Origin: Amylostereum areolatum
Lineage: Eukaryota > Basidiomycota > Agaricomycetes > Russulales > Stereaceae
NCBI GenBank assembly: GCA_012932865.1
Contig: SAXG01000047.1
Location: 292,984 to 356,983, forward strand
Direction of reading: 5' to 3'
Length of the DNA: 64,000 bases
The position numbers were made by a program, and so were the translations under genes. The notes under the pieces are model-generated. The model did not search any database. It was not told where the DNA came from and saw only the letters and a program-made list of their open reading frames with translations. This document shows, one piece after another, positions 1,012 through 34,399 of the stretch (position 1 is the stretch's first letter; every line of letters starts with the position of its first letter).

Positions 1012-2359
1012 CTACCGAATCCCACACGGGCCCTCGGTCATGCTCCGCTGCCGTCGCAGCTCCTTCTTCTTCCCCCACACGTCCCAGATCTTCACCATCT
1101 TCTCCCCGGGTACCGCAAACGCGACCTTCAGCCCGCTGGGACTGATCGCGCTCCAGAGCACAGCGTCCGTCGCGGGGTACGCGGTCCCGACGTGCCCGAG
1201 GCTGGGGAACGCGAGTACGGACACCGCGTTCGCGGCCAGCGACGGGTGCGACGCCGCGGGGTTGAATCCCCCCAGGCCCGACGCGACGTCGGCGGCGGGC
1301 GCGCGCACGGCGCCGTGCGTCGCGAGCACCTCCTTGCACTGCTGCGACCACTGCAGCGACGTGACCTGCGTGTTGAGCTCCAGCCGGTCCGTCGCGAGCG
1401 GGATGGGGGACGTCTCGTTAATGTTCAAGAGCCGGATCGTGCCCGACCCGTCCGCCGCGGCGTCGCCGGAAGACAGCGTTTTGAGGGACCACGGACACCA
1501 TGCAAGAACCTGCGCGGAGAAAATGAGAACAATTAGAAGGGGGGTGGGCTGGCAGGGGGAGTAAAGGCACCTTGACAGCGCCGACGTGCTGCATCTTGCG
1601 GCGCCGCTGGACGAGGTCGCCGACGTCGAGGGGAACGGTCGGGTTCTGGCGCGAGTCCCAGGCAAGGACGACGCCAGACTCGGCCGCGCTCGCGAGCACG
1701 CGGTGGTCGTGGTTCCAGGCGAGGGCGGTGATCCGGGCCTGGTGGCGGGTCACCCGCTTGTTCTGCTCCTTCATCGCGCGCGCGTCGCGGATTCGCGTGT
1801 TGAAGTGGCGGATCGTACCCTTCTCGCCGCCGACCGTGAGCACGGGCCCCGCGAACCGCAGGGCGGTGGCGGGCTTGGTGTACCAGTTCATGATCATCTT
1901 CTTGGAGGGGATGTCCCAGAGCTGGATGAGGCCCCCGGACGTCGCGACCGCGACCACGTTCGGCATCTCCGTGTCGCCGCACTCGATCATGCGCAGGTGG
2001 CCGTGGTGGACCTTGAGCTTGACGAGGACCGCGACGTCGTCGGTGCCGCCGGTGGTGGCGAGGCTCTTGACGTGCACGCGGTCGCCGCGGCCGAAAACGA
2101 GGGTGTTGTACGATGTCCAGGCGAGGGGCGCGGTCGGGCCGAGGACGTCGTCGGTGTGGCCTTGGAAGGGGACGTTCGCTTTGGTTTCGTGTAGGTGGAA
2201 TTTGGCGGAGGTTTCGGAGGGCGGGAGCTGGGTGAAGGAGATGGAGAGAGCGGGGGAGGCGGAGCGGACGGAGACGTCGGCCGGGTGGAGGAAGGGTGTG
2301 ATACCGCGGGAGGGGGTCGGGGGCGCGGACATGAGGCTGATGGAGGAGGCTCTGCTCAT
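1012..2359 (-). CDS. Divergent Cdc20/Fizzy-type WD40 protein, short copy (A')
   Basis: Two exons (2359-1571 and 1509-1012) around a 61-nt GT-AG intron give 428 aa. The protein is a WD40 propeller of the Cdc20/Cdh1 class: LIQLWDIPSKK, ITALAWNHDHRVLASA, LAWCPWSLKTLSSG, TSLQWSQQCKEVLATHG and VKIWDVWGKK lie in the family's order, and the chain ends in Ile-Arg, the tail Cdc20/Cdh1 proteins use to dock on the anaphase-promoting complex (family knowledge). Blade 5 reads RLLNIN where the paralogue has RLWNIN. In the paralogue at 20252-22031 two more exons precede this one; here the matching upstream sequence (about 2400-2600) shifts frame and stops, so I start at the Met at 2359. It lies head to head with the deaminase gene at 2858. 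Function as an APC/C adaptor is inference. Confidence 0.68.
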
Positions 2360-2857
2360 GGATTGGCGGGAGCGATGGCGGTGGATCGTGCGCGGTCGAC
2401 TCGGCGAGCGGTCGAACTAAAAAAACGAAATAACATGAGAGCGTGCAAGTACCACAGAAAACGCCTGCGTACAATAGCGGCCGCTATTTCGACGGCGGGG
2501 CAGAGCTCGTCGCCATCGTCTGCGTCGAACGAGGGCGTTTTCCGCTGGGCTCGCCAACAAGTGTGACGCTATCGCCGGCGGTCGTCAATTGAGAGTGGAA
2601 AATGCGATCGGGGACACACTGGGGTGGCGGCGGCTGGCGGCGGACGACGGACGACGGTTGACGGTCAGTCTGCGGGTATGTGCAAAGAAGTAACGCAGAG
2701 GGCCGCGCAAGGCCGCGCAGCGTGGATTGTGGGAACGTGGGTTTGAACCCTAACCCTAACCATACCCTCTCAGATCTCAAGTTCAACCGACGTTCAACGT
2801 TCAACGCCCGTATCCTCAAAATCTCTCGATGCTCTCCGTATTTCTAACATATAACCT
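2360..2857. promoter_or_regulatory. Shared 5' region of a divergent gene pair
   Basis: About 500 bp separate the two start codons. The left half is relict 5' exon sequence of the Cdc20-like gene (a TTTTTTAG acceptor near 2413, then sequence matching exon 2 of the paralogue but with a frame change). The right half is purine/pyrimidine-skewed and carries a short telomere-like run at 2746-2761. The same layout recurs in reverse at 33347-33860, and in diverged form at 24897-25450 and 29140-29560. Any shared promoter function is inferred from position only. Confidence 0.45.
2746..2761. repeat. Interstitial telomere-like repeat
   Basis: Reads AACCCTAACCCTAACC, two and a half CCCTAA units, about 100 bp upstream of the deaminase ATG. 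The related 5' region at 33443-33452 keeps only one unit (GGTTAGGGTT on the plus strand). Fungal telomeres commonly use TTAGGG, but this run is too short to be a telomere. Confidence 0.6.
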
Positions 2858-4869
2858 ATGATTCCCTCTCCCCCCTCCCCCAATCCTCTCGACGTCAACG
2901 TTCTCGCCGCCCTCATCGGCGGTCTAATCGAGAATAACACCAAAAACGCACGCAGGGAAGGTCAGCCTCCCGACAAGAGTGAAGAGGCTTTCTCCCGCCA
3001 GGCCATCATTCTTGACAGTCTGGCACATCTGTCCATCTGCAATCAGCAAAAGCAGGTCGTTGCAATTGCTGTCGATATCCACGGCGCAGGCGCGCACCTG
3101 TACGTGGCCGAGAATGGCGCGGTGGACAAGCGAGTGGTCCCGATCCTTCACGATATCATCTCGACCCTAAAATCCGTCAGGGACCTCGCTCAAGCCAATC
3201 CCAACATCGACTTGAGCCGTTCTTCTCGCTCCAAGGTCTATTATCGTATCTACGCAGTTGGACCATCTGGACCCGCACAGTATCTTACCGAATTGGAGAT
3301 TAGGCTGGTCAAACACTCCTGGTACAAGATCAAACGGCGCCTTCAAAAGCGCTACGATCCGTTCATCACGTTCATGAAGGAGGTCCAGGGCACCCCACGG
3401 GACGACCTTGCTTGGGACCAAGACGACCGCGTCAATTTTGCAGCCTTACAGTCCGGTCCCCATCGGAAACGCCTCGATTCCATCTACTCTGTTGTGGTCG
3501 CGATGCAAGAAGTGCTTACGGAGGGGCCTCCGACCGACGGGCGAGGAGGGGTGATATTGGCCTACACTCGGCAGTTGCATTTCGAATTCAAAGACCTCCT
3601 TGGCCACGTAAAGAAACGCCGCTTTCCCCACTCCTTTTTTTTTGCATGCGAAAGCTACCTGGCGCTCAGAGGCATGGGTGAGCGATCATATTACTGCCCG
3701 CGACAGCCGTGGTTCTCACAGACTCTCAGAGCAACAGCTGCCGATGGAACGATGGTTAACCAAGCTCGTCGCCGTACACGTTCATTTTCTTCGTGTGGTG
3801 AACTTGGTCGGTTCCGTTCACTTGGCCCCTTTACTCGACAACGTCAAGATCAGTACCGTTCCTCCAAGCACGTCTACTCTCGAGATCAAGGTGGACTACG
3901 AGAGGCTGCAGGATGTCGCGCGTGCGGCAGGATGGAATCGACGCCCAGACCCGCCCAAATCATCTACTGAAGAGGAGGACCCTGCAGTCAGCTTATTACC
4001 GAACGACCCCCTCCGTGTCTTCCTCGGAGAGCTGGACCATCGTCTTCCTCGTCCTCCGAACGCCAAGCAGCCCACGGCTTCCGTCCCGATGTCGCGTACG
4101 TCGATGGACTGCTTCAATTGAGACTCTCGTTTCTGACGTATACCATCTCTTCAGGCTCTCCGGACGTTCAAGTTGTCGTACGCACCTACAAGGATGTTAA
4201 CGTTCACTGCGAATGCTCCCTTCTCGTATATCTTCACCAGCACTCCATCGCCCACATCCCGTACATCGGAGTCTCAAAGCTGTCCTGCTACCTCTGCAAC
4301 GCGTACATCTCCGCCCATTCGCAATCGACCAGCTTCCCGGTTACGACGCTGGGCTGTCACAGCCAGGTTGCCGCGCCTTGGATCTGCCCCCCTACCGCCT
4401 CTGCCGACGTGAAGGAGAGATTGACAAAAGTGATCCTGGAGAAGTTGGCTCGTTATTTGTCCGAGATCGACAAGGAGCTGCAGGAGGCCAGGTTGCGGGC
4501 TCGTAAAGCGTCGCAAAGCACGGTTGAGTCGTCTGATGACGAAGAGAGCGGAGAAGACTCGGAGGTGTTGGCAGACGACCCTGGTATGCTTATTACTTCT
4601 GTCGCGGCGTCTCCGGTTCGCTGAGTGAGCTTGCTCGTATAGGTGGGCTCCTACTCGATTCGATGGCACTCTGGGAGAGGGAAAAAGAACAATTGGCGGC
4701 GGAGGCGGAAACCAAAGCTGCGGGGAAAGCTCAGACACGGGAGAAAGACGAGCAGAAGGCCAAGTTCAAGGCAGAGCCTAAGGCGAAGGGAGATCCGGCG
4801 CAGGCTGCCGGAGAGGCTGACGAGGACGCGGTTGAATACGGTGGTCCGCTCCTCACGGGTGTTGAGTAG
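2858..4869 (+). CDS. OTT_1508-like deaminase family protein (copy A)
   Basis: Four exons (2858-3677, 3730-4095, 4155-4583, 4643-4869) joined by GT-AG introns of 52, 59 and 59 nt give about 613 aa; all three junctions keep phase 1. Residues 1-270 are helical with no motif I know. The C-terminal half has a zinc-deaminase signature: HCE at about 413-415 and CYLC at about 440-443, in the context VNVHCECSLL...GVSKLSCYLC. That spacing and context match the OTT_1508-like branch of the deaminase superfamily, a family known from bacteria and expanded in fungi. The end is a Lys/Glu/Ala-rich coiled tail. Substrate unknown. It is head to head with the Cdc20-like gene at 1012-2359 and almost identical to the gene at 31347-33346. 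The frame after exon 1 depends on splicing, which I inferred. Confidence 0.72.
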
Positions 4870-5216
4870 GGTATTTTGCGGCCGTCCTGGCCATCTGGCT
4901 ACTCTAACGTTTGCGCATGTGTACGATATTCCTAGCAAAGTACTACTGGTGCTGTACCTTTCTTATTCCTGTCAGATCCTCCCGGCGCGACTCATTCGTA
5001 TGACGGTTTCCACAACTGAACGCTATTCCCCCAGCAGCTAGCACGGAACGGACCATGCTTGGGACCGCTCGTGGACCTTCAAACCAAATATACAAAGTAA
5101 TAAAGCTCACTGTAGTTACTATACAAATGAATGAACTTGTATTAGCGTAAGAGCTATGTTTAGGTATTACATCAAAAGTCTGTATGTCAAGATTATAAAG
5201 AAAAAAGGGTTGTAGA
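4870..5216. other. Spacer downstream of deaminase copy A
   Basis: Nothing coding is supported. The first 100 bases resemble the 3' flanks of the other deaminase genes (GGCCGTCCTGGCCATCTGG also follows the genes at 22873 and 31347). Confidence 0.45.
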
Positions 5217-5392
5217 AGATCTTGAGTCTTCTCGGACGCGTCACCAGACAGGATGGCAGCCTGGACGGCAGCGCCGTACGCAATGGTCTCGTCAGGGTTG
5301 ATGCTCTTGTTGGACTCCTTGCCATTGAAGAAGTCGGATGCGAGCTTGAACGTGCGGGGATGCAAGTGGAGCTGCCGACGAAGACAATCTCG
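5217..5392 (-). pseudogene. Hsp70 fragment
   Basis: Reading the minus strand from about 5392, the peptide [13 protein letters not shown] is followed in another frame by [20 protein letters not shown], then [20 protein letters not shown] and KTQDLL. This is the highly conserved end of the Hsp70 ATPase domain (normally EIVLVGGSTRIP...[31 protein letters not shown]). There is a frameshift after the STCIP segment, and homology stops right after KTQDLLQ. Only about 60 of 640 residues remain, so this is a broken fragment, not a gene. Confidence 0.8.
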
Positions 5393-6044
5393 CGGAGGAC
5401 AAGAAATGGTTCAAGAAAGTGGCGATTTGGAGTGGGGAAGGAGTGCGCGAGACCGGTTCGACACGACGACCCGAGAGATTGGTGAAATCACTAGAACATG
5501 AAAATTCGCGGGAGGAGAGGATACGACGACCCGGCGGGGGGGACACGCGAAAAGGAAAGGGTACAATCTAGAAACCCGAGTCAAGTTGGCGAGCGCGCGA
5601 GAATGGGATACGGCGCCCTCAGAGACGGGTGAGTATATGAGAGGATATGATGACATGGTTACTCACGTTCGGAGGTGGAAGAGGCCTACGGAAAAGTACA
5701 GCGCAGGGGGTTACGGCAACGACTGGATGTCACGGAACGGAAGCCTAGTGAGTGGTCGGCCGTGGTTTTGATACCCCATGGTGTTTTGTACGCGACGTGC
5801 ATCGTTCTTGTCATGCGCACGAGCCCACGTTGTCTTACGAACACGGCCAGTCTTCTCGGCTTGATTGATGTCGTCCACAAGCAGGCTGACGTCCTTGCCG
5901 ACGTCCCGAGATGCGAAGCTCTTGAGCCAGAGCTTGCTGGCGTGTGGCTGCTTCAGCTGATCGCGCAAAATGTCCGCGCCGCGCTCGAGGTCGTTTGCAC
6001 GCTTTGAGAGACCTCCAATGAGGTTTTCAACCTGAATAAAGTCA
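5393..6044. other. Region with one possible exon
   Basis: Mostly unassigned. On the minus strand about 5790-6033 an open segment beginning VENLIGGLSKRANDLERGAD looks protein-like (helical, charged) and is preceded by a plausible intron end (CTGACTTTATTCAG). It may continue a short exon beyond the inserted element (minus strand about 6990-6950, read MGTTTTDLTKR or ESHGHYHNGSDEE). I do not recognise the product. Confidence 0.3.
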
Positions 6045-6052
6045 GCTACACC

Positions 6053-6904
6053 TAGGCAGGGACACGGGTCTGCCGACCCGTGGCGGGTCACGGGTACGGG
6101 TCACGCGGGTACGGGTGCGGGTCGGCCTGTCGAAACCCGGGGCCTCCCGCGGGTACCCGTGCTGACCCGTCCGGTTTTCTGGCCCATTTTTGGAGCTTCT
6201 TTTCGCTTATTTTGCTTATTCCGACTCTTATATAGCTAATTCAACTCAGTTCAATTGTATTTTGTACAAAAGAAACCCCCAAATGTAAGTAAAAGTTATT
6301 TGGTAGGGTTAGGGTTAGCTGGTAGAAAAGCAAAAGCACAGCAATGTAGGTAGCAAAAGGGGTACAAGAAAAAAAAAGGGGGCACCGCATCACGAGCACC
6401 AAGCGGCGACTCGCGAGCGGCGGTGGTGGTGGGGTTGCAAAGGAAGGGGGGAGCATGCGCGGTAGGGGGAGTGCACGTGGCGGCGGCGGCGGGGCGGGCG
6501 GCGAGGCCGTTGCAAGCGGCGGGGTGTTGCGAGCGGTGGTGGGTGATGAGGGTGGATGGGTGGACGACGGCGGCGGCGGGTGGATGACGGCGGCGGGTGG
6601 ATGACGGCGGCGGGTAGACGACGATGGTGGATGATGGTGGGTGGGCGACAGCGGTGGGCGGATGACGGCGGGTGGGCGACGGCGGCGGGTGGACGATGGT
6701 GGGTGGGCGACGGTGGCGGGTAGACGGCGGCGGATGGCGTGCGGGGGGTGTGGGCCATGAGTGTTGGTGGTAGATGGGTGCGGGTTTCCCGCGGGAGTAC
6801 CCGGACCCGCAGCAAACCCGGACCCATGAGAACGGGTACGGATTTTGGCGGGACGGGTGCGGGTCGGCTTCCGGGACCCGCGGGAGTACCCGTGTCCCTC
6901 CCTA
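6053..6904. mobile_element. Non-autonomous hAT-like element 1
   Basis: An 852-bp element with ends TAGGCAGGGACACGGGT and, inverted, TAGGGAGGGACACGGGT, flanked by the exact 8-bp duplication GCTACACC (6045-6052 and 6905-6912). An 8-bp target duplication with TIRs starting TAGG is the hAT pattern. Both subterminal regions are packed with ACCCGT/ACGGGT units (6060-6170 and 6778-6895). The middle holds a GGCGGC/GGATGACGGCGG simple repeat (about 6410-6760) and a telomere-like TAGGGTTAGGGTTAG at 6304-6318. No transposase is encoded; the long minus-strand Pro/His/Arg ORF here is a product of the simple repeat. Confidence 0.85.
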
Positions 6905-7773: not shown

Positions 7774-8196
7774 TGTCACAAACGCAGTTTATGAGACCAA
7801 TGGAACCGCCTAAGTCGCGACGATGGGAGGAGCAAGAGAGGTCAGATGGATTTGAGAGTGTCAGGCCTAGGGTAGTGCAACGTGCGCTATAGTACCGTAT
7901 GACGAGATGGACAGTCTAGGGAAAAGGGAAGAGAAACACTGTCCTTATATACAAGTGGGGACGATGGTGCGATGCGATGCGATAGTGGTGCGAGCGGGGG
8001 GAACAATAAGAAAGGAGTCATGGGGCGGAGGATAAAGGTCCGGAGCAATGATGTCATAGATAAGGATGCGGAACCCCGCTCGGAAGTCCGGGCAATGACG
8101 TCGTTGAAGCATGTGATGCGAAGGAAAGTCATGTGCCGTGACACGTCGCGTGTACGGGGTCTGCAAATGAAGAGAGAAATGGAGCGATCCGTGACA
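7774..8196 (-). repeat. Gypsy-1 LTR, outer left
   Basis: Runs TGTCACAAACGC to GATCCGTGACA. It abuts a polypurine tract (minus-strand AAAGGGGGGGTAA at 8197-8209), so it is the 3' LTR of the minus-strand fragment. It shares diagnostic bases with the outer right LTR (13630-14042), for example GCGAAGGAAAG, that the two inner LTRs lack. TATATACAAG near 7949 is the TATA region in reverse. Confidence 0.85.
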
Positions 8197-9184
8197 TTAC
8201 CCCCCCTTTAAGACGCGCTTTCGCCTGGAGCGCGATGTCATCTGCAAGGGTAGATGCGAGAAAATTGTCAAAGGAGATGCCGAGGGAACGCACAGGGCGG
8301 GGCGCGTTTGGATGGCGTTTGTGGAAGGCGTCGATCATGTCGGTGACCTTTGAGAGCGAGGGGCGAGGGAGCCAGGTATTCTCGGAGTCAGGATAGCCTG
8401 CCCACTTGACGAGGTATTGTATGCCTTTCTTGTTGCGGGTTGGCTTCGAGTCGATGATGTCTTCAACGTCATATTCTTCCTTGTCATCAACGAGGTCAGG
8501 CGGCGGTTGTTCATAGTTTGGACCATGTGCCGTTGTCTCCTTGTACGCGGTGAGCAGCGAAGCATGGAAGACTGGGTGGATTCTCCACGTCTTCGGCAGC
8601 TTCAGACGGTAGTTCACTGGGCTAATAACGTCAACGATCTCGAAGGGTCGAAATCATTTGGCAGCAAGCTTAGCTTTCGGCCTCGTCGTCTTCAGGTTTT
8701 TGCCTTCGAGCCAGACCTTGTCTCCGACAGCGAACAGTGTCGATTTGCTGATCGTGTCACCATTGTAGTGCTTCATTAAGTCGGATGCGAGGGCAAGGCT
8801 GGCCTTGATCTCCTGTCGGACTTCTTCAAGTTGACGGAGGCGTTCTTCAACTGCAGGGACCTTTGAGGACGGATTTACGGATGGGTACATCTTGGGGAGG
8901 AAGCCGTAGAGGACTTCAAAGGGGGCCTTTCCAGTAGCTGCATGGGTGCGGGAGTTGTGAGAAAACTCGAAGAAGGGCAGCCACTTCACCCAGTCATCTT
9001 GACGGTAGTTGCAGAATACTCGCAGGAACTGCTCAAGGTTCTGGTTCTCGCGTTCGGTTTGGCCATCTGTCTGTGGGTGATACGCTGTGCTGAGGGCGGA
9101 CTTGATCCCGAGCTTCTCATTGAGTGTACGCATCACCTGTCCAGCAAATTGGGGTCCACGATCCGAGATGATCTTGTCCGCCAA
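8197..9184 (-). pseudogene. Gypsy-1 integrase C-terminus and chromodomain, left arm
   Basis: Minus-strand reading from 9184: ADKIISDRGPQFAG (second catalytic Asp), YHPQTDGQTEREN (catalytic Glu), then an in-frame TGA after KAKLAAK (8654), then FRPFEIVDVI and a chromodomain (YDVEDIIDSKP...IQYLVKWAGYPDSENTW). The stop sits where the related element at 37354-44871 has Arg, consistent with CGA to TGA. The integrase N-terminus is absent: at 9184 the sequence is cut by the inner LTR at the site GCCAA. This is a fragment, identical in protein to the right arm except near the LTR. Confidence 0.85.
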
Positions 9185-9604
9185 TGTCACGGATCGCTCC
9201 ATTTCTCTCTTCGTTTGCAGACCTCGTACACGCGACGTGTCACGGCACATGACTTTCCCTTGCATCACATGCTTCAACGACGTCATTGCCCGGACTTCCG
9301 AGCGGGGTTCCGCATCCTTATCTATGACATCACTGCTCCGGACCTTCGTCCTCCGCCCCATGACTCCTTTCCTATTGTTCCCCCCGCTCGCACCACTATC
9401 GCATCGCATCGCACCATCGTTCCCACTTGTATATAAGGACAGTGTTTCTCTTCCCTTTTCCCTAGACTGTCCATCTCGTCATACGGTACTGTAGCGCACG
9501 TTGCACTACCCTAGACCCCGGCACTCTCGGATCTATTTTCTTCTCGCTCCTCTCATCGTCGCGACTTAGGCGGTTCATCGGTCTCATAAACTGCGTTTCT
9601 GACA
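9185..9604 (+). repeat. Gypsy-1 LTR, inner left
   Basis: Runs TGTCACGGATCG to GTTTCTGACA, 420 bp, with TTGTATATAAGG near 9427 as a TATA box. It differs from the inner right LTR (12222-12641, opposite strand) at only about two positions. On its left is GCCAA, the same target word found at the inner right LTR; on its right it joins the 5' ORF remnant. Confidence 0.85.
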
Positions 9605-10095
9605 CCTGGACAGTCTACCCCTACGCCTACCTCGCACCCCTCTCTCCATCTACCTCTGCCGTCTCTACGACGTTAAAAACTCCCACCACGGACCTCCTGA
9701 ACGCACCGGTTTTCCTCCCGTTCAACGGAAAGCCGATCACCCCCCGCGACGACGCACCACTCCCCTACCCTTGGTCCGACGCCGTCACCGTCAACTGCCT
9801 CGTCCCCCATACAGAACCTCTGCAAGAAAGATCCCTGGACCGCGCACGGCCTCAACTTCCGCATCTTCGAGTGGAGGTGGCACAAGGATCACGGTACTGT
9901 CGTCCTCGCCCTATACGTCCGGATCACTACGTGCATCAACGTAGATCTCGAACACCTTGAATTCACCCTCCACGCCCCCACCTACCACACATACCTCATC
10001 CAGGACGCCCCCAACCCGATCCTCCAAACCAGTTTCACCTCCGTCTCCCAGTTTAACCGTCGGACCCCCGAATCCACCCCGCCACCAGTCCTCCG
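9605..10095 (+). pseudogene. Gypsy-1 5' ORF remnant
   Basis: Broken coding sequence with pieces such as LNAPVFLPFNGKPITP and DLEHLEFTLHAPTYHTYLIQ, ending in a Pro-rich stretch (TPESTPPPVLRPT). The layout matches the small ORF ahead of gag in gypsy-3 (38285-38686, ending HRLLTPGNTPSPTPEPE). The sequence then jumps to the protease-RT linker of pol, so gag and protease, about 2 kb, are deleted. Confidence 0.5.
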
Positions 10096-12221
10096 TCCCA
10101 CAAGGCGCAAGAGCTTGCAGAGCACTCAAAGGAAAATGCACGCCCGCAAACCTTTGAAGACTTGGTTCCCCCTCCATACCGCGACTTTGCACCCGTATTC
10201 GACAAGAAAACCTCTGAACGACTACCCAACCGACGACCATGGGATCATGCCATCGACATGAAGGACGGCTTCGAACCCAAGCCGTGCAAGATCTATCCGC
10301 TCTCCCCCTCCGAGCAGATCGAGCTCAATACCTTCCTCGATGACCACCTGAAGAAGGGCTACATTCGCCCATCAAAATCGCCGCAGGCAAGTCCGTTCTT
10401 CTTCGTCAAAAAGAAGGATGGGAAGCTGCGGCCTGTACAGGACTATCGAGAGCTGAACAAGGGTACCATCAAGAACGAGTACCCCTTGCCGCTGATCTCA
10501 GAAATTGTCGACCGCCTCAAAGGTGCAAAGATCTTCTCCAAGATGGACGTCCGCTGGGGGTACAACAACGTCCGCATCAAGGAAGGCGACGAGTGGAAGG
10601 CTGCGTTCAAGACGAATCGTGGCCTCTTTGAACCTACGGTGATGTTCTTCGGCCTTATGAACTCCCCCGCGACGTTCCAGGCAATGATGAACGAACTTTT
10701 CAAGGACCTTATCGACTCGGGCAAAGTCATCATCTACATGGACGACATCCTCGTATTCACTCGAACTATGGAGGAACATCGTGCCATAGTGCGACAGGTT
10801 CTCCAACGCCTACAAGACAATGACCTGTTCCTTAAGCCAGAGAAATGTGTCTTCGAGCAGGACTCCGTTGAATACCTCGGACTCATTATCTCACACGACA
10901 AGATCGCCATGGACCCCGTCAAGGTAGCTGGTATCCAGGACTGGCCGACACCCCGGACGGTCAAGGATGTACAATCCTTCCTCGGATTTGGTAATTTCTA
11001 CCGACGCTTCATCAAGGATTTCTCCAAGATCGCACGACCTCTGTTCGACCTGACAAAGAAGGACTGCACATGGAATTGGTCGACGGAATGCCAGACGGCG
11101 TTTAACGCACTTAAAGCTGCGTTCACCTCCTCCCCTGTCTTAGTTATGCCTGATCCAAGGAAACCCTACCTCGTCGAAGTTGACGCCTCGGACTTTGCTA
11201 CTGGAGGTATACTCTCGCAGAAAAGCAACGACGGTCACTGGCATCCAGTGGTGTATCTGTCCAAGGCCCTGTCCGAACCGGAACGCAACTACGACATCTA
11301 CGACAAGGAGCTACTCGCAATCATCCATGCGCTCGAAGCCTGGCGCCACTACCTCGAAGGCGCCCCCGACACCGTCGAAATCTGGACAGATCACAAGAAC
11401 CTGGAGCACTTCAAGACGGCACAGAAGCTGAGCCGCCGACAGGCACGTTGGGCTCTATTTCTCACTCGATTTGACTTCGCGCTCGTTCACAAACCAGGAG
11501 TATCCCATCGCCCAGACCCAATGTCCCGACGACCTGATCACAAGCAGGGCCTTGAGAACGACAACAAGGAGCGTATCTTGCTCGACCCCAAGTACTTCCA
11601 GATACGTGCAACAAGGCCAGGAGCAGTAACCTCCCTCGGCAATGTCGAACTCCGACGACGTATCCGCAACTGCAAGACCAAGGACATCGAGGTCGTTCAA
11701 GCTCTGGATGCCATCTTACGGAACGGACCACGTACACTCGTCAAGAACCTTCAAGAGTGGAACTACGAAGAAGGCCTGGTCCTGTTTAGAGGAAAGGTAT
11801 ATGTCCCTGCAGACGACGAGTTGCGACGCGACATTGTCAAAATGTACCATGAATCGCCCCTGGCTGGACACCCTGGTCGCTTCAAGACTTACGAACTTGT
11901 GAGTCGTGAATATTGGTGGCCTGGCATGTCTGTCTTCGTCCGCGACTTTGTAGCAGGATGCGCAACCTGCCAGTCGACGAAGACGCGGAGCAGCCGACCC
12001 CACGTTGACATGATCCCGAACGAAGTACCTGATCGACCATTTGGCGTCATCTCTACCGACTTCATTGTCGAGCTCCCTGACTGCGAAGGCTATAACGCCA
12101 TCAACGTCGTGGTCGATCGCCTCACCAAGATGGTGGTTACCACCCCATGTACAACGAAGATCACCAGCGATGGCACGGCCGACATTCTCTTCGATAAGGT
12201 ATACCGACATTACGGCTTGGC
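10096..12221 (+). pseudogene. Gypsy-1 pol: RT, RNase H, integrase N-terminus
   Basis: One open frame. In order: the protease-RT linker (AQELAEHSKENARPQTFEDL), reverse transcriptase with LRPVQDYRELN and the catalytic YMDDILVF, RNase H (VEVDASDFATGG, YDKELLAIIHALEAWRHYL, IWTDHKNLEHF), the H2C2 zinc-binding motif of integrase (GHPGRFKTYELVSREYWWPG...CATCQ), and the first catalytic Asp of integrase (STDFIVELP). It is cut at YRHYGLAV by the inner right LTR; the frame resumes at 12642. Protease and gag are missing. It cannot mobilise itself. Confidence 0.9.
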
Positions 12222-12641
12222 TGTCAGAAACGCAGTTTATGAGACCGATGAACCGCCTAAGTCGCGACGATGAGAGGAGCGAGAAGAAAATAGATTCGAG
12301 AGTGCCGGGGTCTAGGGTAGTGCAACGTGCGCTACAGTACCGTATGACGAGATGGACAGTCTAGGGAAAAGGGAAGAGAAACACTGTCCTTATATACAAG
12401 TGGGAACGATGGTGCGATGTGATGCGATAGTGGTGCGAGCGGGGGGAACAATAGGAAAGGAGTCATGGGGCGGAGGACGAAGGTCCGGAGCAGTGATGTC
12501 ATAGATAAGGATGCGGAACCCCGCTCGGAAGTCCGGGCAATGACGTCGTTGAAGCATGTGATGCAAGGGAAAGTCATGTGCCGTGACACGTCGCGTGTAC
12601 GAGGTCTGCAAACGAAGAGAGAAATGGAGCGATCCGTGACA
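12222..12641 (-). repeat. Gypsy-1 solo LTR inside integrase, inner right
   Basis: 420 bp from TGTCAGAAACGC to GATCCGTGACA, flanked by the exact 5-bp duplication TTGGC (12217-12221, 12642-12646). It interrupts integrase in the opposite orientation. A solo LTR with intact target duplication means a full insertion followed by LTR-LTR recombination. Confidence 0.88.
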
Positions 12642-13697: not shown

Positions 13698-14042
13698 CTT
13701 TCCTTCGCATCACATGCTTCAACGATGTCATTGCCCGGACTTCCGAGCGGGGTTCCGCATCCTTATCTATGACATCATTGCTCTGGACCTTCGTCCTCCA
13801 CCCCATGACTCCTTTCTTATTGTTCCCCCGCTCGCACCACTATCGCATCGCATCGCACCATCGTACCCACTTGTATATAAGGACAGTGTTTCTTTTCCCT
13901 CTTCCCTAGACTGTCCATCTCGTCATACGGTACTGTAGCGCACGTTGCACTACCCTAGACCCCGGCTCTATCGTTTCTTCTTGCTCCTCCCATTGTCGCG
14001 ACTTAGGCGGTTCCATCGGTCTCATAAACTGCGTTTCTGACA
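13630..14042 (+). repeat. Gypsy-1 LTR, outer right
   Basis: 413 bp, TGTCACGGATCG to GTTTCTGACA, directly after the polypurine tract, so it is the 3' LTR of the plus-strand part. It carries the outer-type diagnostic bases shared with 7774-8196 and lacks about 20 bp near its end compared with that copy. Confidence 0.85.
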
Positions 14043-14993: not shown

Positions 14994-15038
14994 CCCGAGT
15001 CCTTCCCGTCCGTCGCGTTTTTGCTCGTCACTAATAAC

Positions 15039-24896: not shown

Positions 24897-25185
24897 GGGT
24901 GATATGTCGGAAATACGGAGGCCAGCAAGAGAGTTTGAGGATACGGGCGTTGAACGTCGGTTGAGATCTGAGAGGGTGAAAGCGTTGAACGTTGAACAAC
25001 AGACTCAGAGTACGCCACAACGAGTCCTCACGCGCACGGCATAGTATCACGTGCACCTCAACCACGTTCCCACAATTCAATAATAATATTCACGCTTTAC
25101 GGTCCTCTGCGTTACTTGTTTCCACAGAGACCCGCAGACTGACCGTCGAGCCGCCAGCCGCCGCCACCTCAGTGCGTCCCCGATC
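24897..25185. promoter_or_regulatory. Shared 5' region, pair B
   Basis: Short region between a deaminase ATG and the relict 5' exons of a Cdc20-like copy. Similar in layout to 2360-2857, but the telomere-like word is absent. Contains CAATTCAATAATAATATTCACG, an AT-rich island, near 25075. Confidence 0.35.
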
Positions 25186-26392
25186 GCATTTTCCACTCTC
25201 AATCGACGACCGCCGGCGACTAACTTACGGCACACTCGTTGCCGAGCCCAGCGGCCTCAGCGGAAAACGCCCTCGTTCGACGCAGACGATGGCGACGAGC
25301 TCTGCCCCGCCGTCGGAATAGCGGTCGCTATCGTAAGCACGCTTGTTCGCGCTATTTGTACGCTCTCTAATCGTTCCGTTTTTTAGTTCGACCGCTCGCC
25401 GAGTCGACCGCGCACGATCCCCCGCCAACGCTCCCGCCAGTCCATGAGCAGAGACTCCTCTATCAACCTCATGTCTGCGCCCTAGACCCCCTCCCGCGGC
25501 ATCACCTCCTTTCTCTACCCGCGAAATTCCACCTACGCGAAACCAAGGCGAACGTCCCCTTCCAAGGCTACACCGACGACGTCCTCGGCCCAACCGCTCC
25601 CCTCGCCTGGACATCGAACAACACCCTCATTTTCGGCCGCTGCGACCGCGTGCACGTCAAGAGCCTCGCCACCACCGGCGGCACCGACGACGTCGCGGGT
25701 TCTTGTCAAGCTCAAGGACCACCACGGCCACCTGCGCATGATCGAGTGCGGCGACGCGGAGATGTCGAACGTGGTCGCGGTCGCGACGTCCGGGGGCCTC
25801 ATCCAGCTCTGGGACATCCCGTCCAAGAAGATGATCATGAACTGGTCCACCAAGCCCGCCACCGCCCTGCGGTTCGCGGGGCCCGTGCTCACGGTCGGCG
25901 GCGAGAAGGGCACGATCCGCCACTTCGACACGCGGATCCGCGACGCGCCCAGGCCCGGATCACCGCCCTCGCCTGGAACCACGACCACCGCGTGCTCGCG
26001 AGCGCGGACGAGTCCGGCGTCATCCTCGCCTGGGACTCGCGCCAAAACCCGACCGTGCTCCTCGATGTCGGCGACCTCGTCCAGCGGCGCCGCAAGATGC
26101 AGCACGTCGGCGCTGTCAAGGTGCTTTTATTCCCCCTGCCAGCCCGCCCCCCTTCTGACTGTTTTCTGTTTTCTTTCTCCCCGCGCAGGCCCTTGCATGG
26201 TGTCCGTGGTCCCTCAAAACGCTGTCCTCCGGCGACGCCGCGGCGGACGGGTCGGGCACGATCCGGCTCTAGAACATCAATGAGTTGTCCCCCATCCCGC
26301 TCGCGACGGACCGGCTGGAGCTTAACACGCAGGTCACGTCGCTGCAGTGTTCTCAACAGTGCAAGGAGGTGCTAGCACGGTGCGGGGATGTA
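25186..26392 (+). pseudogene. Broken Cdc20-like copy (C')
   Basis: Clear homologue of the gene at 20252-22031, with many lesions: relict 5' exons out of frame; a stop soon after the family's MSRASS start (TAG at about 25481); loss of the segment between the TPF and KFHLRETK motifs; one extra base near 25697 (GTCGCGGGTTCTTGTC); loss of the RAMKEQNKRV segment near 25950; a Trp to TAG change at about 26269 in the RLWNIN motif; and truncation near 26380 where the frame jumps into 3' flank. The C-terminal Ile-Arg tail is gone. The intron near 26121-26188 is still recognisable. Confidence 0.85.
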
Positions 26393-27143
26393 CTTCGAGG
26401 ACGATGGCCGAGGGGCGTTGTGATTCCTTGGGCTTTGTTGTGTGTACTCGGTCCTGTTGTGGGCGAGAGCGCTTTGTTGTACGAGTACTGGTAACGCAAT
26501 GTGTGCACCGCCTTATCTGTGTATGCATCGACGTAGGGTGGTAGGCCACCCTTTCTCGGGCGCGGCTATCTTTCCGTTCACACACATGCAGGTCTCGCCT
26601 TCGCTGGCGCCGTTCACGGTGTCCTCCAATGACGAGGCGCCTTCGCGATGGCTGGCGTAGGTATATCGTTCGTATAGCCTTCCCGGGCGGATTCGACAGA
26701 GTAATCGGGAGAACGAGACTCGGACATTTCATACTTGTTCCAGAGTAATACTAGGCAGACGAAATACTCCGTCTTCACCCGCGAGCGCGTCCCAGATCGT
26801 GTTTTCCAACTCTCAATCGACGACCGTTTGTGACAGCGCGACGCTCGTCGGCGACTCTGAGCCCAGCGGCCCCCGTCCTACCTATTCCGTGGATGTCGTA
26901 CAGTCTGCATAATCGTGATTAGAAGTTGAAGGGTCGGCTGGTGGAGTATATGCCTTCCGTGCATGCACCTGCTCAGTACTCACGGGACGCAACCCGAGTG
27001 AGTCGCGCCGGGAGCTGTCCAAATATGAGAAAGATATGTCGGATTGTTTTGTGCTCGAGGAGTATTCTACTATCAATATCGTACGCATGCGCCTGTGAGG
27101 CAAGCATAAGAGTAGCCAGATGGTCGGGACGCAAAATGCCCTA
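26393..27143. other. Spacer between array units
   Basis: 3' flank of the Cdc20-like family (GTGCGGGGATGTACTTCGAGG, TGTGTATGCATCGACGTA), diverged from the 22032 and 30506 blocks. A relict 5' exon-like word (GTTTTCCAACTCTCAATCGACGACC) recurs near 26800, suggesting a further vanished copy. No gene. Confidence 0.45.
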
Positions 27144-29139
27144 CTAGACGTCCAGGAGGAACAGATGACCGTCCTCAACTGAATCCTCGTCGGCCCTTCC
27201 GTCGGCCTGCGCCGCATCTCTGTTCGCTTCAGCCTCTGCCTTGGATGTGGACTTCTGCTTTGCTTTCGCCTGTGTCTGAGCTTTCCCCGCAGCTTTGGCC
27301 TCCGCCTCCGCCTTCCGTTCTGCCAGTTCTATTGACTGATTGGCCTTCGCCCTAGCTATCAGTTGGTCTGTACAAACAGGGCCACTTAGTACACCGGAGA
27401 CGTCGCGACAAGGGCAAAAAGCATACCGCCGCGACTCAACATCAGCTCTCTACTTCGAATCCCGGTGCCACTAGACGACCCGACGGTGCTTTGCGACGCG
27501 TTCCGAGCCCGCGACCTGGCCTCTTGCAGTTCGTTGTCCACCTCGGACAAATGGCGAAATAACTTTTCCAGAACGACCTTTGTCAATCTCTCCTTCACGT
27601 CTGCAGAGGAGGTGGGGGGGCAGACCCAAGGCGCGGCAACCTGGCTGTGGCAGCCCCGCGTCGTAACCGGGAATCGGGTGGATTGGGAATGACACGAAAT
27701 GTACGCGTTGCAGAGGTAGCAGGACAGCTTCGAGACCCCAATGTACGGGATTGGGATGATAGAACCCTGGTGAAGGTATGCAAGGAGTGAACATTCGCAG
27801 TGGACCTTGACGTCCTTGTAGGTGCGTATAACAATGTCCGGGGGGCCTAAGGAGATAGTATATGTCAGAAAGAGAATCGCTACAAACGGTCCATCGACGT
27901 ACTCGATGTCGGGACGGGAGCCGCGGTCTGCTCAGCGTTCGTAGAACGAGGAAGGCGTTGGTCCAGCTCTCCGAAGAAGACACGAAGGGGATCGTTCGGT
28001 AATATGCTGTCCGCGGGATCCTCCTCTTCAGAGGATGATGTGGGCGAATCCGGGCGTGGCTTCCACCCTGCGGCACGGGCAACAGCTTGTAGTCTCTCGT
28101 AGTCCACCTTGATCTCGACATCAGACGTGCATGGAGGAACAGTAAAGATCGTGACGTTGTCGAGGAAATGGGCTAGCTTATTAGATCCGACCAAGTTCAC
28201 CACGTTAAGAAAATGGATGTGCACGGAGATGAGCTTGTGCAACCATCGCTTCATCGGGAGCTGTTGATCTGAGAGTCTGTGAGAACCATGGTTGTCGCGC
28301 TCAATGAAATGTCGCTCACCCTTGCCTCTGCACTTTAGATAGCTATCGCATGCCATGAAAAAGGGGTGGGGATCAGAGTTTTTCGTCCAGTCACCAAGGA
28401 ATGTTATGAGTTCGGTATACAACTTTGTAGTGTAGCCCGCGATGAGCTGCGCCCCAGATTCGACCAGAGGATCCGTTTTGAACCTATCTTCCATTGGGAC
28501 CACGAACGAGTGAACGAGATCGAGGACTGTCCGGTTGGTCCCTGACTGCAAGGCTGCCCAACGCCAGCGGTCCTCCTTGGCCACTGGCACACGAAGGGCG
28601 TCCGGCGAGGTGCTCCGAACCTCATCTATGAACTCTATAAACGCATCGTAGCGCTTGTGAAGGCGCCGCTTGAGCTTGGACCAGTTGTGTTTGACCAATC
28701 TAACCTCCAAGTTCGTAAGCTCGTCTGCCGGTGGAGAGTTTGGGTCGACTGTGTAAATATCGTCGAAGAGGGTGGGAGGAGAAGCTTGTAGGTCAATGTT
28801 GGGACTGGCTCGAGCGAGGTCTCTGACGGATTTGAGGGTGGAGATGAGATCCTGAAGGATCGGAACCACTCGCTTGTCCACCGCGCCGTTTTCGGCCACG
28901 TAGAGGTGCACGCCCGCGCTGTGCATTTCGGCGGCGATTGCGACGACCTGCTTTTCCCGATTGCAGATGGAAAGATGCGCTAAACTGTCCAGGATAGGGG
29001 CCTCGCGGGCAAGAAGTCCTGTACTTTTGTCGGGCAGACCTTCCCTGCGTGCGTCTTGGGTGTTATTCTCGTTCAGACTGCTAAGGAGGGCGGCGAGGAA
29101 GTTGACGTCGAGATTGAGGGAGGGGGAAGAGGAGGCCAT
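27144..29139 (-). CDS. OTT_1508-like deaminase family protein (copy C)
   Basis: ATG at 29139 (MASSSPSLNLDVNFLAALLS), same intron positions as its paralogues. The first intron here (51 nt, GTGAGCGACA...CTCTCAG) happens to stay open, so the frame reads through it. Catalytic motifs by alignment: VKVHCECSLLAYLHQGS with CYLC in SKLSCYLCNAYISCH. The tail exon reads QLIARAKANQSIELAERKAE and ends LFLLDV with TAG at 27144, a different end from the other copies. The most diverged of the three array members but fully open. Head to head with the Cdc20-like remnant at 29350-30505. Confidence 0.72.
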
Positions 29140-29349
29140 AGGTGATATGTTGGATATATGGGAGCAACGAGAGCTTTTGAGGACACGGACGTGGAGCGTC
29201 GATGTTGGGAGGGTGACAGTGTTGAACGTTGAATAATGAATTATGTATAACGAAACGACGCCACAGCTGCGGTTGTTATGGTATGTTTGGGCAGTATCAC
29301 GTGCACAGACGCTTTTGCAGAGACCCGCAGACTGACCATCGTCACGCCA
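29140..29349. promoter_or_regulatory. Shared 5' region, pair C
   Basis: About 200 bp between the deaminase ATG and relict exon sequence of the Cdc20-like copy. No specific element recognised beyond conserved words near TGAACGTTGAA. Confidence 0.3.
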
Positions 29350-30505
29350 CGCCAGCGCGTCCCGGATCGCGTTTTCCAACTCTCAATCGACGGCCAGCAA
29401 CAGCGGCACCCTCGTCAGCGAGCTGAATTATGCGGAGGATGTCGACGAGATCTGCCCCGCCGTCGGAATGGCGGCCCCCCCTCGTACGCACGCTTTCTTC
29501 GTGCGCTTTACGCGCTCTCATCTTATTTCGTTCTTTTTAGTTCAACCGCTCGCCGAGTCGACAGCGCACGATCCAACCAAGGCACCTGGGGAACGTCAGG
29601 GAACGTCCCCTTCCAAGGCCACATCGACAACGTCCTCAGCCCGACCGCTCCCTTCACCTAAACGTCGAACAACACCCTCGTTTTCGGCCGCGGCGACCGC
29701 GTGCACGTCAAGGCCACTTCGACACGCGGATCCGCGACGCGCGCACGATGAAGGAGCAGAACAAGCGGGTGACCCGCCACCAGGCCCGGATCACCGCCCT
29801 CGCCTGGAACCACGACCACCGCGTGCTCGCGAGCGCGGACGAGTCCGGCGTCGTCCTCGCCTGGGACTCGCGCCAGAACCCGACCGTGCCCCTCGACGTC
29901 GGCGACCTCGTCCAGCGGCGCCGCAAGATGCAGCACGTCGGCGCTGTCAAGGTGCCTTTATTCCCCCTGCCAGCCCGCCCCCCTTCTGACTGTTTTCTGT
30001 TTTCTTTCTCTCCGCGCAGGCCCTTGCATGGTGTCCGTGGTCCCTCAGAACGCTGTCCTCCGGCGACGCCGCGGCGGACGGGTCGGGCACGATCCGGCTC
30101 TGGAACATCAACGAGACGTCCCCCATCCCACTCGCGACGGACCGGCTGGAGCTCAACACGCAGGTCACGTCGCTGCAGTGGTCGCAGCAGTGCAAGGGGG
30201 TGCTCGCGACGCACGGCGCCGTGCGCGCGCCTTTCGCCGACGCAGGGGGATTCAACCCCGCGGCGTCGCATCCGCCGCTGGCCGCGAACGCAGTGTCCGT
30301 GCTCGCGTTCCCTAGCCTCGGGCACGTCGCGACCGCGTACCCGGCGGCGGACGCGGTGCTCAGGAGCGCGATCAGCCCGAGCGGACTCAAGGTCGCGTTT
30401 GCGGTACCCGGGGAGAAGATGGTGAAGATCTGGGACGTGTGGGGGAAGAAGAAGGAGGTGCGCCGGCAGCGGAGCATGACCGAGGGTCCGTGCGGGATTC
30501 GGTAG
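29350..30505 (+). pseudogene. Broken Cdc20-like copy (D')
   Basis: 5' exon relics are out of frame; the first WD40 segment has a TAA where relatives read LAWTSN (about 29659); then an internal deletion joins DRVHVK straight to HFDTRIRDAR near 29712, removing about two propeller blades. From 29748 (MKEQNKRVTRHQARI) the rest is open across the usual intron (about 29952-30019) and ends GPCGIR at 30505, so a C-terminal five-blade product with the Ile-Arg tail could still be made. I call it a pseudogene because the propeller is incomplete. Confidence 0.8.
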
Positions 30506-31346
30506 CATCGGGTGCAGGGACGATGAGGATGGGCGGTAGTGCGGGGATGTACTTCGAGGACGATGGCCGGGGAGGGGGGGCTTTGTTGTGATACCTTGGG
30601 CTTTGTTGTGTGTACTTGGTCGTATTGTGGGCGAGAGCGCTTTGTTGTAGGAGTACTGGCAATGCAATGTGTGCTCGGCCTTATCTGTGTATGCATCGAC
30701 GTAGTATGCATCGACGTAAGGTGATAGGCCACCCTCCCTCGGGCGCGGCTGTCTTTCCGTTCACACACATGCCGCAGGTCTCCTGGCACCGTCCATGGGC
30801 GTCCCCAACGGCGAGGCGGGAAAACTTGTCTTCATGACTTCCTCATTGACATAGCTACAACATCCGCACCCCTAGGCCTCGAACGCGGTGATTCTCCTCT
30901 TTAGATCTATGCTATATTTATTCCACCCTCAATGATATTTATCCCTGCGTCCGAAAGTGCACATTCGTATGTCACTATTTGCTTCGAACTTCATTGCAAG
31001 TGAGGCCAGTCTCCCCGAAGTAGACGGAACGGTAATCCATCTTTCAACACCATGTCAGGCCCAGCGCGTCCCAGCTCGCGTTTTAACTCTCAATCAACGA
31101 TCGCCAGCGACAGCGGGACGCTCGCCGGCGTCGCACGGTCTAATCGAGATGGGTAGATGCGATTTGCGTGCGTGCTCCCGCTTAGTACTAGTACTCACTG
31201 GTGTGGCAACCGTCACACGAATGAGTCGCGCCGGGAGGATCCGACAGGAATAAGAAAGATACAGCTCCAGTAGTACTTTGCTAGGAATATCGTACACATG
31301 CGCAAACGTTAGAGTAGCCAGATGGCCAGGACGGCCGCAAAATACC
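30506..31346. repeat. 3' spacer block, duplicate of 22032-22872
   Basis: Nearly identical to 22053-22790 from about 30527 to 31263, then diverges at the same relative point (AAGAAAGATACAGCTCC here, AAGAAAGGTACAGCACC there). Lies between convergent genes. No coding content supported. Confidence 0.8.
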
Positions 31347-33346
31347 CTACTCGACACCCGTGAGGAGCGGACCACCGTATTCAACCGCGTCCTCGTCAGC
31401 CTCTCCGGCAGCCTGCGCCGGATCTCCCTTCGCCTTAGGCTTGAACTTGGCCTTCTGCTCGTCTTTCTCCCGTGTCTGAGCTTTCCCCGCAGCTTTGGTT
31501 TCCGCTTCCGCCGCCAATTGTTCTTTTTCCCTTGCGAAGAGCGCTAACGAATCGATTAGGAGCTGACCTATACAAGCAAGCTCACTCAGCGAACCGGAGA
31601 CGCCGCAACAGAAGTAATAAGCATACCACGGCGTTCTACCGGCACGTGCGAGTCTTCTTCGTCATCAGACTCATCCGTGCTTTGCGACGCTTTACGAGCC
31701 CGCAACCTGGCCTCCTGCAGCTCCTTGTCGATCTCGGACAAATAACGAGCCAACTTCTCCAGGATCACTTTTGTCAATCTCTCCTTCACGTCGGCAGAGG
31801 CGGTAGGGGGGCAGATCCAAGGCGCGGCAACCTGGCTGTGACAGCCCAGCGTCGTGACCGGGAAGCTGGTCGATTGCGAATGGGCGGAAATGTACGCGTT
31901 GCAGAGGTAGCAGGACAGCTTTGAGACTCCGATGTACGGGATGTGGGCGATGGAGTGCTGGTGAAGATATACGAGAAGGGAGCATTCGCAGTGAACGTTA
32001 ACATCCTTGTAGGTGCGTACGACAACTTGAAGGTCCGGAGAACCTGAAGAGATGGTATACGTCAGGAACGAGAGTCTCAATTGAAGCAGTCCATCGACGT
32101 ACTCGACGTCGGAACTGCAGCCGTGGGCTGCTTGGCGTTCGGAGGACGAGGAAGACGATGGTCCAGCTCTCCGAGGAAGACACGGAGGGGGTCGTTCGGT
32201 AATAAGCTAACCGCACGGTCCTCCTCTTCAGTAGATGATTTGGGCGGGTCTGGGCGTCGATTCCATCCTGCCGCACGCGCGACATCCTGCAGCCTCTCGT
32301 AGTCTACCTTGATCTCGAGAGTAGACGTGCTTGGAGGAACGGTACTGATCTTGACGTTGTCGAGTAAAGGGGCCAAGTGAACGGAACCGACCAAGTTCAC
32401 CACACGAAGAAAATGAACGTGCACGGCGACGAGCTTGGTTAACCATCGTTCCATCGGCAGCTGTTGCTCTGAGAGTCTGTGAGAACCACGGCTGTCGCGG
32501 GCAGTAATATGATCGCTCACCCATGCCTCTGAGCGCCAGGTAGCTTTCGCATGCCAAAAAAAAGGTGTGGGGAAAGCGGCGTTTCTTTGCGTGGTCAAGG
32601 AGGTCTTGGAATTCGAAATGCAACTCCTCAATGTAGGCCAATATCACCCCTCCTCGCCCGTCAGTCGGAGGCCCCCCGGGCCCCGTAAACACTTCTTGCA
32701 TCGCGACCACAACAGAGTAGATGGAATCGAGGAGTTTCCGATGGGGACCGGACTGTAAGGCTGCAAAATTGACGCGGTCGTATTGGTCCCAAGCAAGGTC
32801 GTCCCGTGGGGTGCCCTGAACCTCCTTCATGAACGTGATGAACGGATCGTAGCGCTTTTGAAGGCGCCGTTTGATCTTGTACCAGGAGTGTTTGACCAGC
32901 CTAATCTTCAATTCGGTAAGATACTGTGCGGGTTCAGATCGTTCGACTGCGTAGATACGATAATAGACCTTGGAGTGAGCAGAACGGCTCAAGTCGATGT
33001 TGGGATCGGCTTGAGCGAGGTCCCTGACGGACTTGAGGGTCGAGATGATATCGTGAAGGATCGGGACCACTCGCTTGTCCACCGCGCCGTTCTCGGCCAC
33101 GTACAGGTGCGCGCCTGCGCCGTGGATATCGACAGCGATTGCAACGACCTGCTTCTGCTGATTGCAGATGGACAGATGTGCCAGACTGTCAAGAATGATG
33201 GCCTGGCGGGAGAAAGCCTCTTCACTCTTGTCGGGAGGCTGACCTTCCCTGCGTGCGTTTTTGGTGTTATTCTCGATTAGACCGCCGATGAGGGCGGCGA
33301 GAACGTTGACGTCGAGAGGATTGGGGGAGGGGGGAGAGGGAATCAT
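31347..33346 (-). CDS. OTT_1508-like deaminase family protein (copy D)
   Basis: ATG at 33346 (MIPSPPSPNPLDVNVLAALI), stop at 31347. Nearly identical to the gene at 2858-4869 over most of its length, including all introns; differences include ERSEPAQ for GPSGPAQ and a few residues around the acidic loop (STDESDDEEDSH). HCE and CYLC are intact. Given that closeness, the two are a recent duplicate pair in opposite orientation. Head to head with the truncated Cdc20-like copy at 33590-34399. Confidence 0.73.
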
Positions 33347-33589
33347 AGGTTATATGTTAGAAATACGGAGAGCATCGAGAGATTTTGAGGATACGGGCGT
33401 TGAACGTTGAACGTCGGTTGAACTTGAGATCTGAGAGGGTATGGTTAGGGTTCAAAACCACGTTCCCACAATCCACGCTGCGCGGCCTTGCGCGGCCCTC
33501 TGCGTTACTTCTTTGCACATACCCGCAGACTGACCGTCAACCGTCGTCCGTCGTCCGCCGCCAGCCGCCGCCACCCCAGTGCGTCCCCG
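33347..33589. promoter_or_regulatory. Shared 5' region, pair D
   Basis: Inverted near-copy of 2600-2857. The telomere-like word is a single GGTTAGGGTT (33443-33452) against two and a half units in the other copy. Also shares the GCGCGGCCTTGCGCGGCC repeat. Confidence 0.45.
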
Positions 33590-34399
33590 ATCGCATTTTC
33601 CACTCTCAATTGACGACCGCCGGCGATAGCGTCACACTTGTTGGCGAGCCCCAGCGGAAAACGCCCTCGTTCGACGCAGACGATGGCGACGAGCTCTGCC
33701 CCGCCGTCGAAATAGCGGCCGCTATTGTACGCAGGCGTTTTCTGTGGTACTTGCACGCTCTCATGTTATTTCGTTTTTTTAGTTTGACCGCTCGCCGAGT
33801 CGACCGCGCACGATCCACCGCCATCGCTCCCGCCAATCCATGAGCAGAGCCTCCTCCATCAGCCTCATGTCCGCGCCCCCGACCCCCTCCCGCGGTATCA
33901 CACCCTTTCTCTACCCGCCAAATTCCACATACACGAAACCAAGGCGAACGTCCCCTTCCAAGGCCACACCGACGACGTCCTCGGCCCAACCACTCCCCTC
34001 ACTCCCCTCGCCTGGACATCGAAGAACACCCTCGTTTTCGGCCGCGGCAATCACGTGCACGTCAAGAGCCTCGCCACCACCGGCGGCACCGACGATGTCA
34101 CGGTCCTTGTCGAGCTCAAGGACCACCACGGCCACCTGCGCATGATCGAGTGCGGCGACGCGGAGATGCCAAACGTGGTCGCGGTCGCGACGTCTGGGGG
34201 CCTCCTCCAGCTCTGGGACATCCCCTCCAAGAAGATGATCATGAATTGGTACACCAAGCCCGCCACCGCCCTGCGGTTCGCGGGGCCCGTGCTCACGGTC
34301 GGCGGCGAGAAGGGTACGATCCGCTACTTCGACACGCGAATCCGTGACGCGCGCGCGATGAAGGAGCAGAACAAGCGGGTGACCCGTCGCCCCCAGTGA
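33590..34399 (+). pseudogene. Truncated Cdc20-like copy (E')
   Basis: 5' part closely matches the copy at 1012-2359. Exon 2 relic is in frame here (LVGEPQRKTPSFDADDGDEL, then AVEIAAAIV before a GTACGC donor), thanks to one extra C relative to that copy. The MSRASSISLMSAPPTPSRG exon has a deletion and frame change after TPFLY, and the WD40 part runs from HVKSLATTGGTDDV to KEQNKRVTRR, then ends abruptly at 34399 in unrelated sequence. The last four or five blades and the Ile-Arg tail are missing. Confidence 0.82.

Follow-up and report, generated by a model that had tools for sequence, protein, structure and literature searches.

Gene content of the locus

The window, which is the whole stretch of 64,000 nucleotides of Amylostereum areolatum DNA analysed in this study, lies at the end of contig C125 (assembly of 57.1 Mb in 182 contigs). 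The head-to-head juxtaposition of a deaminase gene and a WD40 copy was confirmed at four sites (A, B, C and D). As the original prediction had claimed, these juxtapositions are real, the WD40 copies are related to Cdc20/Fizzy, and duplication links the pairs (A and D are 96% alike, as an inverted copy). The features of the locus are as follows.

1012-2359, minus strand: WD40 copy A, 5'-truncated; frame over exons 3-4 open, starting at an internal Met; Ile-Arg end
2858-4869, plus strand: deaminase A, 613 aa, PF14441 at aa 412-474, open; spliced model with exons 2858-3677, 3730-4095, 4155-4583 and 4643-4869
15039-17096, plus strand: deaminase F, of a separate sub-family (~52% identical to A in nucleotides), with no head-to-head WD40 copy
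20252-22031, plus strand: WD40 gene E, 535 aa, sole full-length WD40 copy in the window, C-terminal Ile-Arg; four-exon model (20252-20295, 20355-20586, 20646-21482, 21537-22031)
22061-22784: direct-repeat copy 1, ~725 bp
22586-22656, plus strand: WD40 exon-2 relic, 3' side of deaminase B
22874-24896, minus strand: deaminase B, 617 aa, open
25159-26376, plus strand: WD40 pseudogene B, frameshifted, with TAG at E codons 125 and 399 and three losses (70, 37 and 307 nt)
26770-26854, plus strand: WD40 exon-2 relic, 3' side of deaminase C
27144-29139, minus strand: deaminase C, 609 aa, open and the most divergent among A-D
29345-30505, plus strand: WD40 pseudogene C, Trp190 replaced by TAA, losses of 159 and 253 nt
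30535-31259: direct-repeat copy 2, ~725 bp
31060-31130, plus strand: WD40 exon-2 relic, 3' side of deaminase D
31348-33346, minus strand: deaminase D, 609 aa, open; counterpart on contig C120 99.9% identical
33566-34386, plus strand: WD40 pseudogene D, frameshifted and without roughly the final 560 nt of its coding sequence

Beyond the pairs, the window holds the full-length unpaired gene E, deaminase F and a partial deaminase at its left edge. The starts of the paired genes had been described as lying 200-500 bp apart; the gap was found to hold the decayed exon 2 of the WD40 copy, hence this spacing is not a distance between two native starts. Telomere-like CCCTAA units are seen in the gap of pair A (2748-2760, about two units) and of pair D (33442-33452, one to two units), and these may be due to chance. 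Positions 7774-14042 form a retroelement region, Gypsy-like by eye, with an inverted duplication of 1.8 kb (98%) and repeats of 0.42 kb that are ~93.6% alike.

Deaminase and WD40 families in the genome

The paired genes were predicted to be of zinc-deaminase type, and this holds for all four copies, each of which carries the zinc/catalytic motifs HxE and CxxC as HCE and CYLC. Their family is that of the OTT_1508-like deaminases (PF14441), with 54.8 bits on the copy A protein against a curated cut-off of 27, and the genome search scored A, B, C and D at 59.1, 58.3, 61.5 and 59.1 bits. The reading frames of eight related copies were compared. A, B, C, D and the counterparts on contigs C119 (A2) and C120 (D2) are open over 609-617 residues, and the two broken ones, on C13 and C56, both sit away from the locus. 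In the C56 copy (L040, 4250-6700) HCG replaces HCE, so that the catalytic Glu is lost along with the frame; it is a dead relative of the deaminases in the window.

The overall dN/dS between the deaminase copies is ~0.5, which is weak constraint outside the core, and in the motif-bearing block (codons 400-500) the comparison of A with C gives dN 0.10 and dS 0.62. The best protein relative is an Amylostereum chailletii protein (78% identity over 89%), and an alignment-based homologue search returned the same ten deaminases as the first homologue search. With P0036 as the query, the structure model of the deaminase (pLDDT 68.5) found nothing in the PDB at E 0.001.

Gene E carries a Fizzy-type propeller by fold and by sequence, although the WD40_CDC20-Fz family (PF24807) scores 163.7 bits on it, below the curated 200. 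The closest solved-structure sequence is of Cdc20/Cdh1 type (a CDC20 structure, E 2.5e-22), and the first 28 PDB rows of a Foldseek search are Cdc20, Cdh1 and Slp1 entries or APC/C complexes holding them; the model used (pLDDT 75.3) covers the frame 20703-22031, which lacks the first exons and reads through the last intron. Like the Cdc20/Cdh1 coactivators, E ends in Ile-Arg, as do 23 of 30 homologues; the other seven end otherwise, and two of these are named partial by the source. The C-box of the APC/C coactivators is given as DR[F/Y]IPxR in the available text of PMC5717348; unlike the coactivators, neither E nor any of the 30 homologues (P0001-P0030, some of them short or partial) matched even a looser form of this pattern.

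Stronger Fizzy-type matches than E were found elsewhere in the genome, on C144 and C97 among the matches listed. Given these matches, the missing C-box and the PF24807 score below cut-off, E is a conserved, divergent Fizzy-like protein and probably not the main Cdc20 or Cdh1. Its family, with a C-terminal Ile-Arg and no C-box, is possibly an unusual family of APC/C coactivators or inhibitors. The best protein relatives of E come from Dentipellis, Artomyces, Vararia, Hericium and Auriscalpium, which are genera of the Russulales, and no Amylostereum entry was present among the 35 WD40 homologues retrieved. E is not head to head with any deaminase; the open frames upstream of it lie on the opposite strand (17698-19439, minus strand; the frame 18540-19439 has no Pfam match), so its divergent neighbour is not a deaminase. 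A further Fizzy-like WD40 gene occurs on both contigs, ~38 kb to the left of the window on C125 (L035, C125:254086-255125) and at C119:201515-202554.

The genome searches give best candidates, and the counts here are those of the matches listed. For the deaminase there are 23 (22 above the cut-off), of which ten are on C125, C119 and C120 and 13 on other contigs. The E protein has 25, of which 19 are near copies (at least 64% identity), all at the locus on C125, C119 and C120, and the remaining six, on C119, C125 and C97, are Fizzy-like and distant. The contigs that carry the 13 remaining deaminase matches have no near WD40 copy listed, and among the matches listed the adjacency of the two families occurs at one locus only in this genome.

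The dispersed OTT_1508 copies (such as those on C13, C56, C66, C108, C12 and C178) have the PF14441 domain in common with the window pairs and, unlike these, no adjoining WD40 propeller copy. A common neighbour for the other deaminases was sought by cross-comparison of the open reading frames within ~5 kb on each side at 12 loci (13 matches), and none was found. Shared flanks were limited to loci that are near-identical duplicates (L036/L037, which have a CHAT-domain gene, and L042/L043), to related deaminase loci (L038/L040, with common unidentified flanking DNA; L039/L044) and to retrotransposon sequence; the Pfam scan covered nine frames from these other loci (one being the C113 deaminase itself) and one from the window. 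Contig C66 has two near-identical inverted segments (L036, 725600-735500; L037, 854800-864700), both of which carry an OTT_1508 deaminase together with a CHAT-domain gene, the CHAT call being made by Pfam on L036 and the L037 frame being 98.6% identical. In L036 an F-box-like gene is head to head with the deaminase. A weak generic WD40 match (34.6 bits) is listed ~6.6 kb from the deaminase at C66:730537, beyond the ~5 kb flank.

Truncation, decay and mosaic history of the pairs

In comparison to E, all six paired WD40 copies (A, B, C, D, A2 and D2) lack exon 1 and have a common 81-nt deletion in exon 2, which makes it probable that they descend from one truncated copy. None of the six has a complete frame with the N-terminal region. 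The partner had been predicted to be of Cdc20/Fizzy type; the derivation from a Cdc20/Fizzy-like WD40 gene is borne out, and none of the four paired copies in the window is complete. Further damage is present in B, C, D and D2. In B, codon 399 is changed from Trp (TGG) to TAG and codon 125 has TAG in place of Pro (codon numbering of E); two more stops, at codons 4-5, were excluded from the count since they fall within the unaligned stretch of exon 1. The singleton changes are biased towards C>T and G>A (23 of 57 in B, 18 of 37 in C and 34 of 75 in D), the reverse changes being fewer (14, 8 and 8), which would be as in decay. A leans likewise (44 of 115, against 24 reverse). Mutation of the WD40 neighbour by the deaminase was also considered and rejected, A>G not being in excess (B 7, C 3, D 6).

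The WD40 pieces are found on both sides of three deaminases. Relics of exon 2 of 71-85 bp lie 3' of deaminases B, C and D (E 1e-12), in the orientation of the WD40 copy at the 5' side, and a 65-bp relic lies beside the dispersed C13 deaminase (E 2e-14), whose frame, like that of C56, is broken. No relic was found beside deaminase A or in 9.9 kb around C56, and no insertion boundary was identified. With pieces of the same exon on both sides, it is as if the deaminase had been set into a broken WD40 copy; a deaminase lineage may thus have entered such a copy and carried the WD40 sequence along.

The pairs were proposed to have been copied as a unit. This agrees with the synonymous distances for A, B and D and less so with those for C. 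The dS values of the deaminases are 0.19 (A-B), 0.51 (A-C) and 0.06 (A-D), and those of the WD40 copies are 0.135, 0.125 and 0.205, the last being probably inflated by the shifted 3' end of D. As deaminase C is far more diverged than its WD40 neighbour, unit copying would need conversion or re-pairing for C. The 3' tail of WD40 C is identical to that of E over ~725 bp. The history is thus mosaic, in that deaminase C is older than the split of its WD40 neighbour, and with such discordant ages a single ancestral unit is insufficient.

Contig C119 aligns with positions 1-6840 of the window, its main block being 98.9% alike over 6,160 columns, and C120 aligns with 14996-41583 as two blocks; between 6.8 and 15.0 kb only short repeats were matched in the compared C119/C120 sequence. 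From the identity and order of these matches, C119 and C120 are taken as the putative other haplotype. C120 runs through E and its 3' tail directly into deaminase D, with 8.47 kb containing pairs B and C missing, and its junction has ~725 bp identical to both direct-repeat copies. Unequal exchange between these repeats would explain the difference, and an assembly jump between them in C120 could mimic it.

Among the meanings that had been offered for the pairing, hitchhiking fits best, with WD40 partners that are truncated and mostly broken beside deaminases that are open. We consider it quite probable that the locus is an expanding family of OLD-type deaminases with hitchhiking WD40 remnants. 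A broken duplicate of E would have taken up, within its 5' part and in reverse orientation, a deaminase lineage of the OTT_1508-like kind. Segmental duplication, inversion and unequal exchange would then have multiplied the deaminase, while the WD40 remnants would have travelled with its copies and decayed. The product retained would be the deaminase, whose most likely role is A-to-I editing of RNA as in OLD, and its copy number would still differ between the two haplotypes.

Alternative readings and biological meaning

WD40 copy A could count against the hitchhiking reading. It is the only paired copy with an open propeller, its exon 1 being absent and its exon 2 decayed, and it is the sole one that could still yield a propeller protein. 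In A and its C119 counterpart exons 3-4 are open across the whole propeller with the Ile-Arg end kept. Over 202 columns invariant in five orthologues, A and E depart in 35 each (one in each being an artefact of the first column), hence A decays no faster than E at these columns. It could therefore be a working truncated gene, whose propeller, ending in Ile-Arg and lacking an N-terminus, would compete for the APC/C. However, the native first exon is missing, the Trp of RLWNI is changed to Leu on both contigs, and four of the five amino-acid differences between the alleles fall on the orthologue-invariant columns, the C125 allele alone departing in three of these. The A-E dN/dS of 0.24 may come from constraint that acts solely on the E branch. 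We regard a new gene at A as improbable, though it fares best among the alternatives.

A functional divergent pair would join the deaminase as effector and the Cdc20-like protein as adaptor under a shared promoter, be it as toxin and antidote, as a drive element or as effector and degradation adaptor. The four tight head-to-head copies and the open propeller of A with its Ile-Arg end speak for such a pair. It is rejected on account of the truncation of the WD40 partners and the further damage in most of them: over the two putative haplotypes, none of six is full length and four are disrupted further, whereas all six paired deaminases are open. Further, the full-length gene E is not the head-to-head partner, and 13 of the 23 deaminase matches listed have no near WD40 copy on their contigs. 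The same counts leave the proposals of a co-regulated effector with its degradation adaptor and of a poison-antidote locus unsupported, and we hold a functional pair to be very unlikely.

The original prediction also knew of no described system that links the two families. No description of a deaminase-Cdc20 pair was found in the literature searched; for the OTT_1508 family, however, a neighbour-gene system exists. This is the OLD-ZAO module of Neurospora crassa, reportedly the work of Honda, Yokoyama and Suzuki in 2025. According to the available parts of PMC12754623 and PMC13327615, its OTT_1508 deaminase edits the transcript of the genomic neighbour at a premature UAG; deaminases of this kind edit RNA in the virus response of a fungus other than the present one, and the part of PMC11169179 at hand names CHE1 as the Fusarium zao homologue. 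As far as these texts go, the present locus resembles OLD-ZAO in having an OTT_1508-like deaminase with HxE...CxxC, an adjoining partner gene and duplication of the pair. It differs in the partner, which is a decayed Cdc20-like WD40 copy whereas ZAO is a zinc-finger factor, in lacking a frame that is intact but for one editable stop, and in that most of the deaminase matches listed lie away from any near WD40 copy. A six-frame pattern scan of 17 sources gave no C2H2 match in the window and one CCCH match at 40971, away from the pairs; four C2H2-like matches were at other loci (two in L041, one each in L044 and L046). With neither a zinc-finger partner nor an intact frame holding a single UAG, membership in OLD-ZAO was rejected.

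A related reading has a premature UAG in the WD40 transcript as the editing target of the neighbouring deaminase; it is about as unlikely as the functional pair. The deaminase domain is the same as that of OLD, and the TAG at Trp399 of B (its A at 26271) has U before A and is predicted in a hairpin loop at all three window sizes, a site type described for OLD in the part of the literature available. However, the TAG at Pro125 of B has its A predicted paired at all three sizes, B has frameshifts and the 307-nt loss, the stop of C is a TAA, and A and D have no in-frame stop, so editing would not restore a full protein; the partner is also not a zinc-finger gene. No editable premature UAG in an intact frame was found, the one at Trp399 of B lying in a broken copy and A, C and D being without an in-frame UAG, and for a gene in decay one TGG to TAG substitution is nothing unusual. 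Slightly less probable still is that remnant transcripts made from a shared promoter, for instance that of B with its UAG hairpin, serve as substrates or sensors of OLD-type editing, with the propeller of A blocking the APC/C upon deaminase induction. Least probable is an assembly artefact of the repeat-rich contig end, to which the identical ~725-bp repeats and the position of the window at a contig end could point, since A and D have counterparts on separate contigs (98.3% on C119, 99.9% on C120) and deaminases B and C are ~11-25% from A and D, too much for sequencing error.

Hence, the hitchhiking reading is retained. The deaminases are the living part of the locus and the WD40 partners are hitchhiking remnants, in a juxtaposition that is real and mostly block-duplicated; the conspicuous pairing seems to be a side effect of duplication and not a two-gene machine. 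If this is true, a tempting and probably false two-gene system is removed and a useful system is left, and it is a caution that a repeated head-to-head geometry can stem from one gene lying inside the duplicated, broken copy of another. The significance is modest and lies mainly in the expansion of a copy-number-variable OLD-type deaminase in a basidiomycete, whose locus holds ten OTT_1508-deaminase matches over two haplotype-like sets of contigs, with copy number varying across the ~725-bp repeats.
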